DNA from: Planktothrix paucivesiculata PCC 9631
GTDB lineage: Bacteria > Cyanobacteriota > Cyanobacteriia > Cyanobacteriales > Microcoleaceae
Direction of reading: 5' to 3'
NCBI RefSeq assembly: GCF_900009265.2
Contig: NZ_LR735026.1
Coordinates: 672,499-736,498, forward strand
Length of the DNA stretch: 64,000 nucleotides
Shown: in pieces, positions 27,131 to 50,698 of the stretch
Layout of the letters: each line of letters starts with the position of its first letter
How positions within the stretch are numbered: the first letter of the stretch is position 1
Notes under the pieces: model-generated
What the model was told of the DNA's origin: nothing
Database searches by the model: none
Seen by the model: only the letters and a program-made list of their open reading frames with translations
Made by a program: the position numbers and the translations under genes

Positions 27131-29362
27131 ATGGTGTTAAACAAAAAAGATACATCGATAGTCACCTTAACGTTATTGTTATCAATAGCGACGAGTCCGG
27201 TTGCCTGGGCGACCTCTCGGTGGAACTCCAACTCTAGCGTCACTTCTTCCGCGCTTTCAGAGTCATCCTTATGGTCTCGCGGACAGGTGAGAAATATTGA
27301 TATTAAGTCGGAGTCAGAGGACTGGAGTGTTCAAAATCCAGGGGATTTCAAGCTGAAATCCGGATCTAATTCGGCGGTTAGGTTGATTGCTAAGTCTCCT
27401 ATTGCTCTGAGCCAGATTGACCCGCGTTTATCCCCAGCTAACACCAACAATGATAGCCTAGTGGGGCAATCTTCCCAAATGCAGCCCACAACAGTTCCGG
27501 CGACGGAAGGAGAAATTCCCATTTGGTTGTGGTGGTTACTTCCTGTGATTCCATTTTTGGGTTTATGGGTCAATTTACAATTCAAAGCTCAACGTTCTAA
27601 GTCCCCAGTCAAAAAACAAGAAGACCCTATTTCTGTTCCCTCATCTACAAAACCCGATGTTACAGGGGAGCAACCTCAGAAAAATTCTAATCAAATTGAT
27701 TTTAACAGTTTGACAGAACCCCTGAAAACTCCATTTTCTCCAACTATTAATAAGCAGTTTATAGAACCCTTAAAAACTCCATTTTCTCCAACTATTACTA
27801 CTTTTTCTCTCCCTCGTACTATTATTAAGAAAGATAATCATACAGAAACGTTTGAATTAGAAGAAAATCTTCAACCCCAAGGAGCATCTATTAGTTTAAT
27901 GGAATCGGAGGCAGATAATTTAGATTCTGCGATCGCTATTCCCCATCAAGAATCAATTTTGTTAGAAGATGAAGATCAGGTTAAAACTCAATCCGAGGCA
28001 GAATTTTTGATTTCATCAGAATCTCCTGAACCGGGATTTTATCCGGTTGAAAATGGAGAAATTGAGGAAGTTTCGGAAGTCGTATTAATTAAGGAAATTG
28101 ACCCGAATGAAGCTGAAGCTGTAATTGCAGAATTTTTGACAACAAAAATATCGGTTTCAGAAATAGTAGAACCTGAACCTGATATTCAGAATGAATCTAT
28201 TATTGTGGAATTGGATAGTACGGAATTAGAATCGACGGTTGCTCCGGTTAGTGATGGGTTGACGGAACCGGAAATATCGGTTTCAGAAATAGTAGAATCT
28301 GAACCCGAGTTTCAGCATGAATCTGTTATTGTGGAATCGGATAGTACGGAATTAGAACCGACGGTTGCTCCGATTGATAATGAGTTGGCGGAACCGGAAA
28401 TATCGGTTTCAGAAATAGTAGAACCGGAACCTGAGTTTCAGCATGAATCTATTATTGTGGAATCGGATAGTACGGAATTAGAACCGACGGTTGCTCCGAT
28501 TGATAATGAGTTGGCGGAACCGGAAATATCGGTTTCAGAAATAGTAGAACCGGAACCCGAGTTTCAGCATGAATCTATTATTGTGGAATCGGATAGTACG
28601 GAATTAGAATCGACGGTTGCTCCGGTTACTCATGAGTTAACGGAACCGGAAATATCGGTTTCAGAAATAGTAGAATCTGAACCTGATTTTCAGCATGAAT
28701 CTGTTATTGTGGAATCGGATAGTACGGAATTAGAATCGACGGTTGCTCCGGTTACTCATGAGTTAACGGAACCGGAAATATCGGTTTCAGAGGTACTAAA
28801 ACCGGAAACCGAAGTAATAGAATTAGGAGTACCTCATCAAGAGATTCGTTCAGAAACAGACGTAGCAGCTACTAAATTTAATGTAGGAAAAGAAATAAAA
28901 TTTGAACCCTCCCTTGCGGATGTAGACCAGGGACTTGCACCATTACCCGAGGGATATGGTCAGAGTCAGATTTTCCTGTTACCCCGTGATCCAAATTGGG
29001 CCTATGCGTATTGGGATATTCCTAACGAACATAAAGAACATATCCGTCACCAAGGCGGGAAACACCTTCTCCTGCGGGTTTATGATGTCACTGCAATTGA
29101 TCTTGATACCCAACCGCCATTGTCGGTGCAGGAATATGAGTGTGATGAGATGGCTAGAGAATGGCATATTCCTATTGCCATGAGTGATCGAGATTATATT
29201 GCCGAATTGGGTTATTTAACGCTGGATGGACGTTGGTTAGTCTTAGTCAGATCTAATCATATTCATATCCCCCCCATTTATCCGACGGACTGGGAAAATT
29301 ACCAATTTATTAATATTCCTTGGGATGAAGACCTCAGAGGAAAAACCTTTTTCAAACTCTAA
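27131..29362 (+). CDS. DUF4912 protein with 42-residue tandem repeats
   Basis: The 743-residue protein has a hydrophobic N-terminus (residues 9-28, possible signal peptide), a membrane segment near residue 135 (IWLWWLLPVIPFLGLW), a long acidic region, and a C-terminal DUF4912 domain (FLLPRDPNWAYAYWDIP...). The acidic region contains five 42-residue repeats, each opening ISVSEIV, plus the start of a sixth. The DNA repeats with an exact 126-bp period from 28145 to 28774. DUF4912 function is not known to me. The repeats would form an extended acidic stalk. Confidence 0.82.
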   Translation: MVLNKKDTSIVTLTLLLSIATSPVAWATSRWNSNSSVTSSALSESSLWSRGQVRNIDIKSESEDWSVQNPGDFKLKSGSNSAVRLIAKSPIALSQIDPRLSPANTNNDSLVGQSSQMQPTTVPATEGEIPIWLWWLLPVIPFLGLWVNLQFKAQRSKSPVKKQEDPISVPSSTKPDVTGEQPQKNSNQIDFNSLTEPLKTPFSPTINKQFIEPLKTPFSPTITTFSLPRTIIKKDNHTETFELEENLQPQGASISLMESEADNLDSAIAIPHQESILLEDEDQVKTQSEAEFLISSESPEPGFYPVENGEIEEVSEVVLIKEIDPNEAEAVIAEFLTTKISVSEIVEPEPDIQNESIIVELDSTELESTVAPVSDGLTEPEISVSEIVESEPEFQHESVIVESDSTELEPTVAPIDNELAEPEISVSEIVEPEPEFQHESIIVESDSTELEPTVAPIDNELAEPEISVSEIVEPEPEFQHESIIVESDSTELESTVAPVTHELTEPEISVSEIVESEPDFQHESVIVESDSTELESTVAPVTHELTEPEISVSEVLKPETEVIELGVPHQEIRSETDVAATKFNVGKEIKFEPSLADVDQGLAPLPEGYGQSQIFLLPRDPNWAYAYWDIPNEHKEHIRHQGGKHLLLRVYDVTAIDLDTQPPLSVQEYECDEMAREWHIPIAMSDRDYIAELGYLTLDGRWLVLVRSNHIHIPPIYPTDWENYQFINIPWDEDLRGKTFFKL
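28145..28774 (+). repeat. 126-bp coding tandem repeat, five units
   Basis: Units start at 28145, 28271, 28397, 28523 and 28649, with a partial unit from 28775. Neighbouring units are almost identical, especially the second to fourth, which suggests recent expansion or homogenisation. Confidence 0.9.
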
Positions 29363-29420: not shown

Positions 29421-29543
29421 ATTTAATGACTACCCTATTCACCGGATATTAACAAGATTGAAAAATGTTGTTCTTGGTTATAGAGACAACAATACCTTTA
29501 AATCTTTGATAATTGATGGGTGAAGAAGGTTAGATCTTGAGGA

Positions 29544-31047
29544 TTAAGTTAGTTTTTCTAATCCAGCTTGAATAGCTCCGATGAGATTATCTTGCTCTGG
29601 TGGAAAGCCTTGAAGACTGATATCAAGAGGCTGATTTGTAATCCAAATAATATAGAATCCTAGTTCTTTATCAACTAATTTTAGGGAAACGGCGAGAGCT
29701 TCGGGGGTGGGTTCTTGATATATTCCTACACGATCTTGAATACAAAGAATGAGGGCTAATTTAGACTTTTGTAATTCATCTTGAATGGTGAATAGGTGTT
29801 GTTGAAGTTCGGCTGCATTACGAACTGTTGGCGGTTTTCCAGAGATATTCACTTGCGGATGTTTATAGATTTTAGTTGAAAGGAAATTTGCGATCGCTTC
29901 TTCATTAGTTTCAGTCGCTAAATTTAGGCTATTAATCACTAACGGATAAACGGTTTCTGTCGGTTTCAGTTGTTGAGCAAGGTCAGTCAATTGAGGTTTG
30001 AAGGTTGGAATAGAAATTTGACTATGCCATGCTTCCCAAAATTCTTCATATCTAAAATGTTCAGAACATTCAGCAGCAACATCATAAGCTAGTTGATAAA
30101 TTGAACTGGATTCGTCATTATTTTGATAATTGACATATCTACCCATCGTTGAAACTATTAACCTTTTTGCTTCAATTTTTGAAACTGTGTTTTCAGCCAG
30201 ATTTATATTGATGGCATACAAACTATATACAATTGCTTTGACTGTTATTTTATTTTGGGGAATTGATAATAAATCAATAAGTTGTTGAACCGTTTGTAAA
30301 TCTTGAACAGGAAAATAAGTTAAATGATAATAAGTTAAAAGATATAAAATTGCACATTTCATCTCGGAATTTACCGCTGATTTTAGCTGTTTAAGTAACA
30401 AGTTTATTATTTCCTGCTCATTGCCTACTTCTTCATAACGAATCAGCATTTTTAATCTTGCTATTGATGCGCCTTTAATAAAAGGATGATTATTGGGATT
30501 GATTAACTCTAGTAACTCACTAACATTACTTAAAGCAAATATATTATTAAGTTTGTTATTAAATAAATTCTTAAGTTTATCTACTTCGGATTTATTTTTT
30601 GTTAAAAGTTTTTCTTCTATTAACAACTCTCGATAAACCAATAGCCAAAATTCATATTTTTCTGGATATTCGGTTTTTATAAAAGATTCTATGTATTCAA
30701 AGTGCATCCAAATATTTAAGTAATAAATTAGATCTTCTTCAATTGCATCTTGTGCATGTTTAATTTTCCAGATTTCATCAGTTATTTTATCAAAAAAAAT
30801 TCCATAAATTACGAATTGTTCTTGATATTTATTCCATTCATCCCACAAACGTAATCGGTAATCATAATTATCCTCATGATCTATATGTTCATAAGTGATA
30901 TCATTAAGACTTGTGTTTCTAAAATTGAATAAAAAATCTTCTAATAATCTGTAGTGATAATGTTTATTAAAAATATTATTGCATCCATCTTTAAATTTTA
31001 TTAATGCCCATGCAAATTCTTCTTTGAGTGGATCTTCAATATGATTA
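29544..31047 (-). pseudogene. C-terminal part of a NACHT protein gene split by an IS630 element
   Basis: The reading frame is open on the minus strand from the insertion site (31047) to the stop at 29544, about 500 codons; a TTG at 30848 could restart translation but is probably not the true start. The product is mostly helical, as in the repeat region of NACHT proteins, and ends in a small alpha/beta domain (LALILCIQDRVGIY...YIIWITNQ). Removing the element and one TA joins it in frame to the NACHT part at 32231. The junction would read LLWAGSNHIEDPLKEE. Without its N-terminal half this part is unlikely to work. Confidence 0.85.
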
Positions 31048-32230
31048 AGTAGGTGGTCATAAATAGAGTTAAAATAAGAAATGAAGAAATATCAGAGGAA
31101 TAGTCATGCCACTGAGGTTAAGAATTCAACTAACAGAAGAAGAAAAACAAGAGCTACTAACTCTGTATCAGCAAGAGAAAGTTCCGAAAAGAACAAGGCA
31201 GAGAATAGATATATTAATGTTTAGTGATGGAGGATGGATGGTCTCAAAAATAGCCCAGACTTTAAGGTGTTCAGAAGCCATGGTAAGAAAAACAATAACT
31301 CGATGGATAAATCAAGAAAAAGAAGGATTATTTGATGCTCCTCGTTCGGGAAGAAAACGGAGGTGGAAAGAAGAAGATATAGAATATTTAGAAACTTGTA
31401 TAGAGTCAGATGAAAGAACTTATAATAGCCGTCAACTGTCGGAAAAACTTCTGCGAGAGAGAGCGATCGCACTAAGCGCAGAAAGAATTAGAAAAATCTT
31501 AAAAAAAAAAGACTGGCGCTGGAAAAGAACAAAAGCCAGTTTAAAGAAAAAACAGAATCCCGAAAAAACAGCGAGCAAGAAAAGAGATTTGGAGACGTTA
31601 AAGCGTTATGAAGAAGAGGGTTTGGTCAGATTAAAATATTTAGATGAGGCAGGTTTTTGTTTATGGAGTCCTGTGAGTTACACCTATGTAAAAAAGGGGA
31701 AGCAGAAACAAATAAACCAGACGAAAAAGCGAGGAAAAAGATTGAATGTAATTGGAGTATTAGAAAAAGGAAAAAGTTTTGAGTACGGTTTAAGTTTGTC
31801 AGGAATTACAAGTGAGAATTACATAAAATTTATAGATTGGCAAGCGGAAAAAGCTGAAAAGCATTTTCAAAATACTCGACAAATTACCGTACTGATTCAA
31901 GACAACTATAGCGTCCATAAAAGTCAAAAAATACAAGAAAAAGAAAGGGAGTGGCAAGACAAAAAATTAGAATTTTTTTTCCTGTCTGCTTATAGCCCTG
32001 AATTAAATGAAATCGAACCAGAATGGCATCAATTAAAAACTCATGAACTGGCGGGAAGAATGTTTGAAGATGAATATGATTTGAGCCAAGCTGTGATTCA
32101 AGCCATTGAAGATAGAAACGAAAGAAATGATTGTACCTGCGATCGCTTGCGATTTAATTCCCTGAGTAACTCTCAAGAATTATCCTAAACAATCTTTTTC
32201 TATTATTGACTTTATTTATGACCACCTACT
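31048..32230 (+). mobile_element. IS630-type insertion sequence, intact copy
   Basis: A 1183-bp element with perfect terminal inverted repeats of at least 18 bp (AGTAGGTGGTCATAAATA and its complement), flanked by TA at 31046-31047 and 32231-32232. TA target duplication and the transposase type mark it as IS630/Tc1-like. It carries one intact transposase gene. A shortened copy of the same element lies at 49751-50698. Confidence 0.93.
31106..32188 (+). CDS. IS630 family transposase
   Basis: The 360-residue protein has an N-terminal helix-turn-helix (about residues 43-70, KIAQTLRCSEAMVRKTITRW) and a DDE catalytic core with Asp180 (YLDEAGF), Asp266 ([10 protein letters not shown]) and Glu302 ([11 protein letters not shown]). 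All catalytic acids are present, so it is probably active. It is encoded in the direction opposite to the gene it interrupts. Confidence 0.93.
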   Translation: MPLRLRIQLTEEEKQELLTLYQQEKVPKRTRQRIDILMFSDGGWMVSKIAQTLRCSEAMVRKTITRWINQEKEGLFDAPRSGRKRRWKEEDIEYLETCIESDERTYNSRQLSEKLLRERAIALSAERIRKILKKKDWRWKRTKASLKKKQNPEKTASKKRDLETLKRYEEEGLVRLKYLDEAGFCLWSPVSYTYVKKGKQKQINQTKKRGKRLNVIGVLEKGKSFEYGLSLSGITSENYIKFIDWQAEKAEKHFQNTRQITVLIQDNYSVHKSQKIQEKEREWQDKKLEFFFLSAYSPELNEIEPEWHQLKTHELAGRMFEDEYDLSQAVIQAIEDRNERNDCTCDRLRFNSLSNSQELS

Positions 32231-33866
32231 TACTTCCTGCCCACAGCAAAATAACTTCTCTCCATTCATGTTCAAAAGCTCGATAACGTTTGTATTCACC
32301 CTGGCTATCTTTAACAGGTTTATCAATATGGTTAGAAGGGAGGAAAAAGTCCCGAGTTTTGATTGATAATGCTGCAAAATATTCTTGAAAAGTTGGGTGA
32401 AAGAACGCATACACAGATTCAAGCGGGTTTTCTTGTGCAACACCGATGGGAATTAGCCAGTTAAGTTTAACAGCTAAATCAAATAATAAAATTTTTTGCT
32501 CATCCTTTCCTAGAAACTGAGTTATAAATTTCTGAGATAGCCGAAACCGAGATATTTCTTGGTTAAGAGCAGTTTTAGCAAGTTCTCCTAAAAAATTATT
32601 TAGATTTTGCCGTACTATTTCATCTAGGGTGACTTGAACTTTATTTTTGTTCCATTCATAGAAAGCATCAACAAACCACTCATATAACCTGGCTTTAATT
32701 TCAGGAAGTTCTGGTTCCCCTTCTTGCCGTTGCCAACTATAACACAGTAAGGTTAAGCTAAGAGGATTTTTAACAAGATCTTGAATAACTTTCTTATTTG
32801 ATTTTGCAAGTTCTGACTTCAGTTTTTCTCCTTGCTCATAGTTATTCTTAAACCAGTTACTAATAAACTGATGTACTTCGGTTGGATAGTCAAAATCTAA
32901 GTTTTGGTAAACGTCAAATCCATCCAGTGAATTTTTTCCCATATCCCAAACATTTAACCGACAGGTCAGCACAACCCGAATATTTTGTAACCATCCTTCA
33001 TTCATTTGAGTTGCAATTTGATAGAGTGGATGAGAAACAGACATTTCATCTACCCCATCTAAAAGCAACCAAACTTTTCCAGTTTTTAACAAGTTTCCGA
33101 GTTCATCTTGATAGTGTTGGGGTGCAGTTTCTAGTTCCTGAGTTGCATTTCTCAGCCAATCATTCAGTAAATATTCATTAATAGATTTTTCTCCTATTTC
33201 AGTCAACGATATCCAAATCGGAATATCATCAGTTTTTTCTAAAATCCATTCTCCAATTTTTTGCAGTTGGGTAGTTTTTCCGGCTCCTGCTTCACCAATA
33301 ATTGCAATACGGCTTCCTTGACTTTTTGCACTTTGCTTTTCCTTCAAAACTTTTGTAAAAAAGTCGTCATAGCTAATTGGCGTAACTTTATCATCATTGT
33401 TCTTTGTAGATAATGGCAAAGTATGGTTATCAGGAGTATATTGAGGCTTGTCTGCTTTTTCGACTACACCTAATTTTATAAAAATATCATCAACTTTAAA
33501 ACGCACTCCAGTTGTTAGGGGATTTGTTGTTAACCATTTTCTTTGATTTAGTAATTCCTGACAAATTTCTCGCCAGTCAATATAAATGGCTTCTTCTAAC
33601 TGTTCTGAGTCATCAGAGTTACAGATGTCTGTTATGGAAAAACCAAAAACTTCTGAGATCAGGCGCGCATTAGATCGATAAACTGCTTTTCCTTGAAAAA
33701 AACGTTCAACGGTATCCTCAGAAATATAAGTTTTTTGTGAAATAGTGTCAGCAATTCGTTTATATGTCCACTTTTTACCTTCTGGTGTTGGGTGATGGTC
33801 TTTTGCATCTATAATTTTTTGTAAACCGTCAATACTTGCAGGAATACGGGATGGGGGAATTGTCAT
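32231..33866 (-). pseudogene. N-terminal part of a NACHT NTPase gene split by an IS630 element
   Basis: This part encodes about 545 residues of host sequence before the frame enters the element and stops (32226). The first 80 or so residues look like a helix-turn-helix module (YKRIADTISQKTYISEDTVERF). The NACHT domain has a Walker A at 191-198 (GEAGAGKT) and a Walker B at 267-274 (LLLDGVDE). NACHT proteins are STAND NTPases; many bacterial ones act in phage defence, others in signalling. The truncated protein keeps the whole nucleotide-binding site but loses its sensor/repeat half. The original protein would have had about 1045 residues. Confidence 0.87.
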
Positions 33867-34013
33867 AAATACCGAACCTTGTTGAATTAACTCAATCTTA
33901 GATAAATTTTATTGGAAAACCAAGGGCAGATAGGGGCAGATTATCTGCGGTCATCTGATCTGTATTATCATTGAGAAAATTGATAGGGTGAAATTGTCGT
34001 ATTCATAAATACT

Positions 34014-34541
34014 ATGACAGCATTTCAACTCAATCTTTTTCAACCTGACGTTTCTGCCGATCTCTCCGATAATTTACCCTTTGAGCGGGGAGAAATGGTT
34101 AATGCTTATGCTTTATCCATTGGAGAGATCTTGCGGAGAGTTTTAGGAAATGAATATTGGTACAATTTTGAGTTTCCCTTGCAGTTACTTTGCAATAAGG
34201 GGGAACATACATTTTTACCGAAAGAACTTTGGCAGTTTTGGGTCAAATCCAGACTGGATATTACGGTGATGAGTACAAAATTAGGAGAGAATTGCCGCAA
34301 GGCGTGTTTATTAGTGGAATGTCAATCACCGTTTCATGATTGGCCAGATGCACAACAGCGCGATCGCATGAAAGCTAATATTATTCGTCCTACGGGTATT
34401 CCATTAATTTATGCGCGATATGCAGATTATCCGAGAATATTAAGATTTTGGACAGATAGCGCAGAAGAAGTATTTTATAATCCGTTTACTGGAGACGGTT
34501 GGGAAGCATTAACGAGATTGATCAAGAATCAGTGTCTCTAA
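34014..34541 (+). CDS. hypothetical protein, possible PD-(D/E)XK nuclease fold
   Basis: A 175-residue protein with no close family that I can name. The middle and end (LLVECQSPFHDWPDAQQRDRMK) resemble DUF2726-like and other restriction-endonuclease-fold proteins, in which an acid, a Glu-x-x motif and a following R..D..K block form the active site. It begins with FQLNLFQPD. It lies 147 bases from the divergent NACHT gene start and may belong to the same accessory cassette. The nuclease idea is a weak inference. Confidence 0.55.
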   Translation: MTAFQLNLFQPDVSADLSDNLPFERGEMVNAYALSIGEILRRVLGNEYWYNFEFPLQLLCNKGEHTFLPKELWQFWVKSRLDITVMSTKLGENCRKACLLVECQSPFHDWPDAQQRDRMKANIIRPTGIPLIYARYADYPRILRFWTDSAEEVFYNPFTGDGWEALTRLIKNQCL

Positions 34542-34559
34542 CTTATTTGATATTAGTTG

Positions 34560-34586
34560 GGGTGTCAGCATTATGTTTGCACACCC
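34560..34586 (+). terminator. possible terminator hairpin
   Basis: GGGTGT (34560-34565) pairs with ACACCC (34581-34586), followed by TTTAGCTGTTTTT. It lies about 20 bases after the stop of the preceding gene. Confidence 0.4.
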
Positions 34587-34640
34587 TTTAGCTGTTTTTA
34601 CACCTAATAGGGAACTATGGCAACAGAATGATGAATTAGC

Positions 34641-34733
34641 AATAATAATTCTAATGCTCAAATAACAGGAACCCTGCCAATTACAGGGAATTATCGTGTT
34701 ATAGTTAATTCTATTGCTATAATTTATATCAAA
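34641..34733 (+). pseudogene. possible remnant of a pre-peptidase C-terminal (PPC) domain
   Basis: In one frame this stretch reads NAQITGTLPITGNYRVIVNS, which looks like the end of a bacterial pre-peptidase C-terminal domain of secreted proteins. No larger gene surrounds it. It runs in frame into the antitoxin gene at 34770, which is probably chance. Confidence 0.3.
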
Positions 34734-34769
34734 AGTTTAAACCCATCTAAATTTAAAGGACAATTTAAC

Positions 34770-35048
34770 ATGATCTCACCACAATTATTAGAAATAGAAA
34801 AATCCATCAATAATTTATCCTTAGTCGAAAAACTATGGTTATTAGAAAATATTGCTCGAAAAATACGAGAAGGAGATTCCGAGATTAATCAAAAAGAATC
34901 TATTCAAGAAATTACCCTAGAGGATAAACTAAATCAGATGAAAGAATTTTTAGCTACTCCTTGGGAGGGAAAAGAAGATTTTTTAGAAATTATGACAGAA
35001 GTTGATCAAGAACGTCATTGTTATTTAGGTCGGAAAATTGAATTATAA
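34770..35048 (+). CDS. antitoxin-like protein of a VapC pair
   Basis: A 92-residue acidic protein with the pattern INNLSLVEKLWLLENIARKI, typical of small cyanobacterial antitoxins located directly before PIN toxins. AGGA precedes the ATG. The C-terminus is the likely toxin-binding part. The toxin gene starts 21 bases later. The assignment rests on context as much as on sequence. Confidence 0.7.
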   Translation: MISPQLLEIEKSINNLSLVEKLWLLENIARKIREGDSEINQKESIQEITLEDKLNQMKEFLATPWEGKEDFLEIMTEVDQERHCYLGRKIEL

Positions 35049-35069
35049 TCACTATAGGATTGTGTTATT

Positions 35070-35465
35070 ATGTATTTACTAGATACCAATATTTGTATAG
35101 CAATTAATAATCTTAATTCTAAAGTTTTAACAATATTTTATCAGAAGTATTCTCAATGCTATGTTCCTACTATTGTAATTGCAGAACTCTATAAAGGTGC
35201 TTATTGTTCTCAACAAATAGAACAAAATCTTACCAGAATCAACCATTTTTTAAATTTGATTCCAATGATTATTGACTTTGATCAACAAGCAGCAGTTGAA
35301 TTTGGGAAAATTCAAGGAGAACTCAGAAAACAAGGAAAACCTACGGGAGAAATTGACGCTATAATTGCAGCGATCGCTCGTTCACGAGGAGATATTATTG
35401 TTACAAACAATACTCGTCATTTTATTGAAATCTCAAAGTTACAGATCGAAAATTGGCTAGGTTAA
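35070..35465 (+). CDS. vapC: VapC-type PIN domain ribonuclease toxin
   Basis: VapC toxins are PIN nucleases that cut tRNA or rRNA until the antitoxin binds them. The acids are Asp5 (LLDTNICI), Glu39 (IAELYKG) and Asp96 (EIDAIIAA). The fourth position is Asn-rich (VTNNTRHF, residues 112-118), as in many VapC/FitB proteins. The 131-residue length is normal. AGGA lies before the ATG, and the antitoxin gene is immediately upstream, so they form one operon. Confidence 0.88.
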   Translation: MYLLDTNICIAINNLNSKVLTIFYQKYSQCYVPTIVIAELYKGAYCSQQIEQNLTRINHFLNLIPMIIDFDQQAAVEFGKIQGELRKQGKPTGEIDAIIAAIARSRGDIIVTNNTRHFIEISKLQIENWLG

Positions 35466-35708
35466 TAATTCTTATTTTGAGTTACAAGTACAAGTTGCGC
35501 CGCAATAATCAGCAGTTTTAAAAATTATTATACTGGCTCGACAAGTAATTGTCTCTGGTGGCATATTTAGGGCGAAATTCCTAAAGAATCCCATATCATT
35601 CAGACGTGGGAGTGTCAAAGCTCCATTATAATTGATCTCAAAAGTTAAATACTATCCAATCTTTAATGGAGTTGAGTTATATTTGACTATAAAAATACCC
35701 AAGTGTCT

Positions 35709-49750: not shown

Positions 49751-50698
49751 AGTAGGTGGTCATAAATAGAGTTAAAATAAGAAATGAAGAAATATCAGAG
49801 GAATAGTCATGCCACTGAGGTTAAGAATTCAACTAACAGAAGAAGAAAAACAAGAGCTACTAACTCTGTATCAGCAAGAGAAAGTTCCGAAAAGAACAAG
49901 GCAGAGAATAGATATATTAATGTTTAGTGATGGAGCGCACTAAGCGCAGAAAGAATTAGAAAAATCTTAAAAAAAAAAGACTGGCGCTGGAAAAGAACAA
50001 AAGCCAGTTTAAAGAAAAAACAGAATCCCGAAAAAACAGCGAGCAAGAAAAGAGATTTGGAGACGTTAAAGCGTTATGAAGAAGAGGGTTTGGTCAGATT
50101 AAAATATTTAGATGAGGCAGGTTTTTGTTTATGGAGTCCTGTGAGTTACACCTATGTAAAAAAGGGGAAGCAGAAACAAATAAACCAGACGAAAAAGCGA
50201 GGAAAAAGATTGAATGTAATTGGAGTATTAGAAAAAGGAAAAAGTTTTGAGTACGGTTTAAGTTTGTCAGGAATTACAAGTGAGAATTACATAAAATTTA
50301 TAGATTGGCAAGCGGAAAAAGCTGAAAAGCATTTTCAAAATACTCGACAAATTACCGTACTGATTCAAGATAACTACAGTGTCCATAAAAGTCAAAAAAT
50401 ACAAGAAAAAGAAAGGGAGTGGCAAGACAAAAAATTAGAATTTTTCTTCCTGTCTGCTTATAGCCCTGAATTGAATGAAATCGAACCAGAATGGCATCAA
50501 TTAAAAACTCATGAACTGGCGGGAAGAATGTTTGAAGATGAATATGATTTGAGCCAAGCTGTGATTCAAGCCATTGAAGATAGAAACGAAAGAAATGATT
50601 GTACCTGCGATCGCTTGCGATTTAATTCCCTGAGTAACTCTCAAGAATTATCCTAAACAATCTTTTTCTATTATTGACTTTATTTATGACCACCTACT
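49751..50698 (+). mobile_element. IS630-type insertion sequence with internal 235-bp deletion
   Basis: It has the same inverted ends as the copy at 31048-32230 and is flanked by TA (49749-49750 and 50699-50700). Compared with that copy it lacks the bases equivalent to 31233-31467 and has a few substitutions. The element could only move with a transposase supplied by the intact copy. Confidence 0.9.
49809..50656 (+). pseudogene. IS630 transposase pseudogene
   Basis: The first 42 codons match the intact transposase, then the 235-bp deletion removes the helix-turn-helix and shifts the frame. The part from 50057 on is open for 199 codons and keeps all three catalytic acids, but it lacks the DNA-binding half. 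Confidence 0.88.

Follow-up and report, generated by a model that had tools for sequence, protein, structure and literature searches.

When two open reading frames (ORFs) stand on either side of an insertion sequence, are they neighbouring genes, or are they the halves of a single gene? The question is raised by a locus in Planktothrix paucivesiculata PCC 9631, where an IS630-family element separates two minus-strand ORFs, one carrying a NACHT domain and the other a domain associated with NACHT proteins. The locus lies in a stretch of 64,000 nucleotides, here called the window (contig NZ_LR735026.1, forward-strand positions 672,499 to 736,498, or G000:C112:672499-736498 in our numbering of genomes, G, contigs, C, and loci, L), which belongs to a host genome of 6.15 Mb in 184 contigs. 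We put at roughly 0.93 the probability that the two frames are one STAND-type NACHT gene, split by the IS630 element at a TA dinucleotide with duplication of that TA.

The N part of the gene (32226..33866, minus strand) runs for 546 codons, the last of which is supplied in part, along with the stop, by the element, while the C part (29544..31046, minus strand) is open over 500 codons, its first listed start lying 66 codons in, at 30848. The element between them occupies 31048..32230 on the plus strand, a length of 1183 bp, and is flanked by a left and a right TA target duplication at 31046..31047 and 32231..32232. A preliminary description of the locus had named these ORFs, inverted repeats and TA sites, all of which were found where it placed them, and had predicted that removal of the element and one TA would give a protein of about 1045 residues. 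Coordinate arithmetic agrees: the N part to 32231 (1636 nt) and 31045-29544 (1502 nt) add up to 3138 nt, or 1046 codons, which is 1045 residues and a stop. By chance alone the frame would be restored one time in three.

Both parts hold a recognizable domain. The NACHT nucleoside triphosphatase (NTPase) domain of the N part (Pfam PF05729; 32844..33311, minus strand, residues 186-341, E 3.3e-9) scores 37.2 bits against a Pfam cut-off of 26.7, and NCAB1 (NACHT C-terminal Alpha/Beta 1, Pfam PF22724) in the C part (29556..29981, minus strand, C-part residues 356-497, E 1.4e-14) scores 54.8 bits against 27; in uncut relatives, for example L081 and L086, the two lie within a single ORF. The preliminary description also saw a helix-turn-helix at the N end and helical repeats in the middle. 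For the former, a possible Cro/XRE-like region at 33576..33866 (minus strand) gives weak matches in the window (HTH_26, E 0.039; HTH_32, E 0.013), neither of which reaches its cut-off, and the homologue L087 passes with HTH_3 (25.1 against 23 bits); the latter is a reading by eye. Pfam finds no nuclease domain in either half, and a sequence search of the PDB returned nothing matching the N half or the transposase. The joined protein would begin with a possible helix-turn-helix, continue through a NACHT NTPase switch into a rapidly varying middle, probably made of helical repeats, and finish with NCAB1 at the C terminus.

The junction itself can be judged against homologues and against a natural uncut allele. 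Among the fetched loci, 17 homologous ORFs match the N half at an E value of 1e-3 or better, and in 11 of these the same ORF contains a C-half match as well. A MAFFT alignment of 15 of the 17, with the N and C halves of the window as separate rows, shows every one of the 15 passing over the junction in one continuous block, VILLWLGRED...KEEFI..LV.F.DGC, with variations; in this alignment the N half ends LLWAGS and the C half starts NHIEDPLKEEFAWALIKFKDGC, the first four residues of the C half having been misplaced by column. The uncut allele, L115, is a 3.4-kb contig (DMHA01000241.1) that was found among the best 80 matches of a contig search with the NACHT alignment, a contig search with the C half having found no relative. 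Its NACHT domain is over the cut-off, its DNA is 93% identical to window 34587-32230 and then continues straight into the C side, and its junction reads VILLWAGSNHIKDKQKEEF, so that GSNHIED, predicted for the window from the letters alone, has the counterpart GSNHIKD, one residue different. Judged by its sequence, L115 is a natural uninterrupted (empty) site, and with the 15 homologues that read through it upholds the proposal that IS630 entered a single gene at a TA and left its frame intact. The element would have entered the TA inside the conserved block VILLW.G...KEEF, doubling it, and would halt translation after 546 codons; the split copy is presumably non-functional.

Several observations weigh against this reading. 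Six of the 17 N-half homologues have no C-half match in the same ORF, and in L091, L092 and L095 NCAB1 lies in an ORF of its own, the break falling at a point other than the window junction. L115 is labelled Flavobacterium sp. UBA8409, yet its 93% identity to this cyanobacterial locus makes it almost surely mis-binned, that is, a cyanobacterial contig filed in the wrong bin. While its N half is 87% identical in protein to that of the window, its C side is just 46% identical over the first 202 C-half residues, and the contig ends before NCAB1. Finally, no strain-level empty site was seen.

The best-surviving alternative, though in our view an improbable one, is that the N half still works, as a 546-residue NACHT protein with an end supplied by the element and the role of a truncated or constitutive regulator. 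The open N frame, the NACHT score over the cut-off and the 93% DNA identity to L115 on this side all speak for it, but such a protein would be without the middle and NCAB1 parts that are found in homologues. A shade less probable again is that a recombination border lies where the element stands, the C half having been swapped with that of another NACHT gene and the element having arrived before or with the exchange. Identity to L115 does fall at the junction, from 93% in DNA on the N side to 84, 74, 80, 70, 72 and 42% in successive 50-bp steps along the C side. Identity drops past the block in the same way, however, between L091 and L092, which are uncut there and occupy a common chromosomal site beside an HflX-type GTPase gene: their DNA is 89% identical through the N part, has no match in the middle and is 94% identical over the last ~330 bp. 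More broadly, among 60 NACHT ORFs of at least 700 residues each, 68 of 1770 pairs have a NACHT identity of at least 0.80, and in 41 of these 68 the middle is below 0.5, the last 140 residues still being at least 0.7 identical in 13 of the 41. Since the border belongs to the NACHT family, the element is not needed to explain the drop in identity; on these alignments, the element sits at the border between a conserved part and a changing part, and that border is a family trait rather than one made by the element. We give very little credit to a reversible split, in which exact excision would leave cut and uncut cells in one population, because no mixed allele was seen in the assembled sequence and exact restoration of a gene is not the expected outcome for the IS630 family, for all that the TA duplication and the intact frames on either side of the element would permit it.

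To return to the preferred reading, a gene cut by IS630, the element is well defined. Its 360-aa transposase (31106..32188, plus strand) scores 174.6 bits with NCBIfam NF033545, against a cut-off of 100, and is assigned to DDE_3 by Pfam; its terminal inverted repeats are 31046-31081 and 32197-32232, and its sequence, AGTAGG...CCTACT, measures 1183 bp. This genome holds 21 full-length copies, all with a 100% identical transposase, and the ends of the element are fixed by the presence of TA on both sides of all 21. At the DNA level, the 21 comprise 17 identical copies, three variants of 1182 bp and the window copy, which is like none of the others, differing from the 17 at 5 of 1183 bases, all located at ~855-957 of the element. 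Three further copies are shorter by internal deletion (947-948 bp), have TA on both sides and are not all identical. One of the three, 948 bp long, lies within the window at ~49809-50653, and as two near-alike deletion copies stand elsewhere in the genome, the shortened form may have moved too.

A search of nine further genomes of the genus, of which one is 73% complete, found no close full-length copy, its matches being short remnants of up to 89% identity and elements that are more distant, and the only plasmid matches are to two Planktothrix agardhii plasmids, at 92% over 48% of the element. The sister copies here and the lack of close full-length copies in these nine congeners together indicate that the element multiplied in this lineage. 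Comparison of the copies suggests that the window insertion is probably recent, as the preliminary description had proposed, and both the 17 identical sister copies and the nine congeners lend support. The 5-base difference weakens the case for recency a little, since the window copy is then no straightforward product of the main burst.

As for function, bacterial NACHT proteins are STAND NTPases, some of which protect E. coli from phage, bNACHT25 being among the protective ones (PMC12169576). By analogy, our best guess for the whole protein is an anti-phage role: it may be a ligand-triggered sensor of phage, in which the middle would sense, NACHT would oligomerize and the end domains would signal. 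PADLOC returned nothing for the C half, while the N half gave no more than a weak hit (mad8, E 0.00057), and the window protein falls far below the NCBIfam cut-offs for the anti-phage NACHT families HyoA and EruA. In kind, the window case is ordinary, a STAND-type gene disrupted by an insertion sequence; it offers a clean example of defence turnover, being a probable defence gene soon after its loss, with the uncut allele known.

The site of the gene is variable among congeners. Next to the C part, and convergent with the NACHT gene, lies a DUF4912 gene (27131-29362), at which the sites in congeners were compared. On the other side, a divergent 175-aa ORF that is weakly nuclease-like (34014..34541, plus strand; DUF2726, E 0.009, below the cut-off) is followed by an ORF that is antitoxin-like by its position and a VapC-type PIN toxin gene (together 34770..35465, plus strand), within the same variable block. 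L104 (G004) is without window ~29517-35647, which holds the NACHT gene, the 34014 ORF and the VapBC-like pair; L101 (G001) and L103 (G009) are without 29428-34717 and the vapC gene and keep the antitoxin-like ORF; in L102 (G007), window 29378 is joined to 37361; and L105-L108 match the window solely in and just past the DUF4912 gene. The NACHT gene, the weakly nuclease-like ORF and the VapBC-like pair are thus a block that is absent in part or whole from congeners. The 34014 ORF had earlier been thought an orphan that might belong to the NACHT locus, a suggestion that gains partial support: the ORF is missing together with the NACHT gene in all four site-keeping congeners (L101-L104), and it is open in L115, where it adjoins the uncut NACHT allele.

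Within the DUF4912 gene, in-frame repeats with a 126-bp period occupy window ~28146-28791, and the length of this ORF varies among congeners, perhaps via repeat number. Elsewhere in the same genome, a second NCAB1-NACHT gene, at L214 (G000:C160, 9795-14749), is interrupted at about codon 340 (window numbering): between its parts, the opposite strand carries a HigB-type toxin gene together with a small partner ORF. In a third NACHT gene, at L215 (G000:C6, 667-4480), NCAB1 is encoded by an ORF of its own. Four NCAB1-NACHT genes were seen in this genome, only one of which (G000:C112:377952-381731) is a single ORF.

The family also raises a question beyond the window, one that matters more than the split and is the surprising part of this work, deserving separate study. 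In other cyanobacteria, short NCAB1 pieces recur downstream of NACHT genes. Their DNA shows them to be direct repeats of the same gene's 3' end, the repeated tail being the last 70-430 bp of the NACHT gene (once about 600). Such arrays were found at L084, L085, L086, L091, L092, L094 and L195-L213, all of them in relatives; the window gene is outside the system, its tail DNA being unmatched by the L084 tail and its next neighbour a convergent gene. The 95-bp L084 tail matches at least 32 of 148 genomes of the order, from at least 15 of 80 genera (E 0.001). Thirty loci chosen for holding tails contain 112 copies at E 0.1 or better, counted on one strand per locus, which was the NACHT strand in the 20 of 30 with a NACHT ORF. 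L183 and L193 duplicate other loci of this set; leaving them out brings the count to 104 copies, and of the 76 spacings 63 are 700-1350 bp. At L200, one tail copy lies upstream of the NACHT gene and not downstream. The tails have no match in plasmid or phage collections, and a plasmid search with two cassettes gave two records at 68% for one and none for the other. At L195, an IS605-type TnpB gene lies ~2 kb past the last tail.

What stands between the tails is shared between genomes and differs in its order. Inter-tail segments of 250-1600 bp number 68 (26 loci, 22 genomes; median 799 bp), and 58 of them fall into 14 multi-genome clusters, 12 of which span more than one family, against 4 of 95 shared among control segments of 800 bp each, taken at least 1.5 kb past the last tail of the same loci. 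Identity between full-length modules of different families reaches 97.8% (L204.1 versus L209.1). By cluster number, the order of modules is 9-7-0-3 in L198, 9-0-3 in L086, 9-5-3 in L205 and 3-0 in L209, and 12-1-5-8-7-2 in L085 and 1-u-7-2-8-5 in L196. The Planktothrix-like L092 has one extra module of ~1 kb compared with L091 and L094, right at the tail of the gene and with collinear flanks. Module 1 has at least 13 matches of 86% identity or more in the 148 genomes, of which 9 abut a listed tail, 2 lie less than 2 kb from one and 2 have none listed; its weaker matches (up to 74%), at least 12 in number, are all without a listed tail. Of 19 chosen module proteins searched against Pfam, 13 match type II toxin families (10 PIN-type and one each of YafQ, MazF/PemK and ParE), one matches a C39-like peptidase and five have no match.

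On balance we favour, with some reserve, the interpretation that the 3' ends of NCAB1-NACHT genes anchor a cassette system, in which mobile modules of ~0.8 kb, tail-bearing and often encoding type II toxin-antitoxin pairs, would be gained, lost and reordered behind a defence gene by recombination in the tail, and would pass between cyanobacterial families. The likeliest engine is homologous recombination in the tail, because the joint between module and tail is fixed for each module and differs between modules, and because most array genomes tested have no integron integrase. Each module would have acquired its stretch of NACHT tail in a single event and would since have moved by recombination within it. 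A literature search returned no description of NACHT-tail arrays among the matches listed.

Three other accounts of the arrays were tried and rejected. An integron is disfavoured by the repeats, which fold no better than shuffles (8 repeats, both strands, 100 shuffles each; z -0.79 to 2.14), and by the integrase model TIGR02249, over its cut-off in just 2 of 16 array genomes (G018 and G108), where by their coordinates the integrases lie more than 2 Mb from the arrays; matches are broken or partial in G060, G117 and G155, and the other 11 genomes have none. Against our own interpretation it must be counted that the integrases of G018 and G108 could act from afar, and that three more genomes hold the broken or partial matches. 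Constraint on the tail at the DNA level finds no support, as the nucleotide identity of tails between families (0.87, 48 pairs) does not exceed that of the NACHT region (0.86, 38 pairs), and where residues agree, their codons agree too in 0.78 of cases in the tail versus 0.81 in the NACHT region; because the tail is conserved no better than the NACHT region, transfer of whole genes explains its identity. Nor is there a fixed, site-specific left border, the joint in 67 copies ranging from -69 to -609 before the stop, with many near -98 to -108. If the cassette interpretation is true, defence genes that anchor shuffled toxin-antitoxin arrays by their own 3' ends would be a means of building defence islands without an integrase.

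Set beside known systems, the window element is in no way unusual for the IS630 family, with which it shares a DDE transposase, inverted repeats and TA target duplication. The gene resembles those of the bNACHT proteins in its central NACHT STAND NTPase and C-terminal NACHT-associated domain, and differs in that this domain is here NCAB1 and there SNaCT or NCH1 (PMC12169576), and in that the window gene is interrupted. The targets of diversity-generating retroelements in Thiohalocapsa (PMC10907252) likewise combine a NACHT/STAND core with a changing sensor in multicellular bacteria; that sensor is C-terminal, whereas the window family varies in its middle, between conserved ends. The arrays, for their part, resemble integron cassettes: in both, small modules, many of them toxin-antitoxin, are each followed by a repeat of ~100 bp or more and stand in shuffled order. 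Unlike in integrons, the repeat of the arrays comes from a NACHT gene's 3' end, folds no better than shuffles and meets its module at a joint that differs by module, and 14 of the 16 array genomes are without an integrase over the cut-off.

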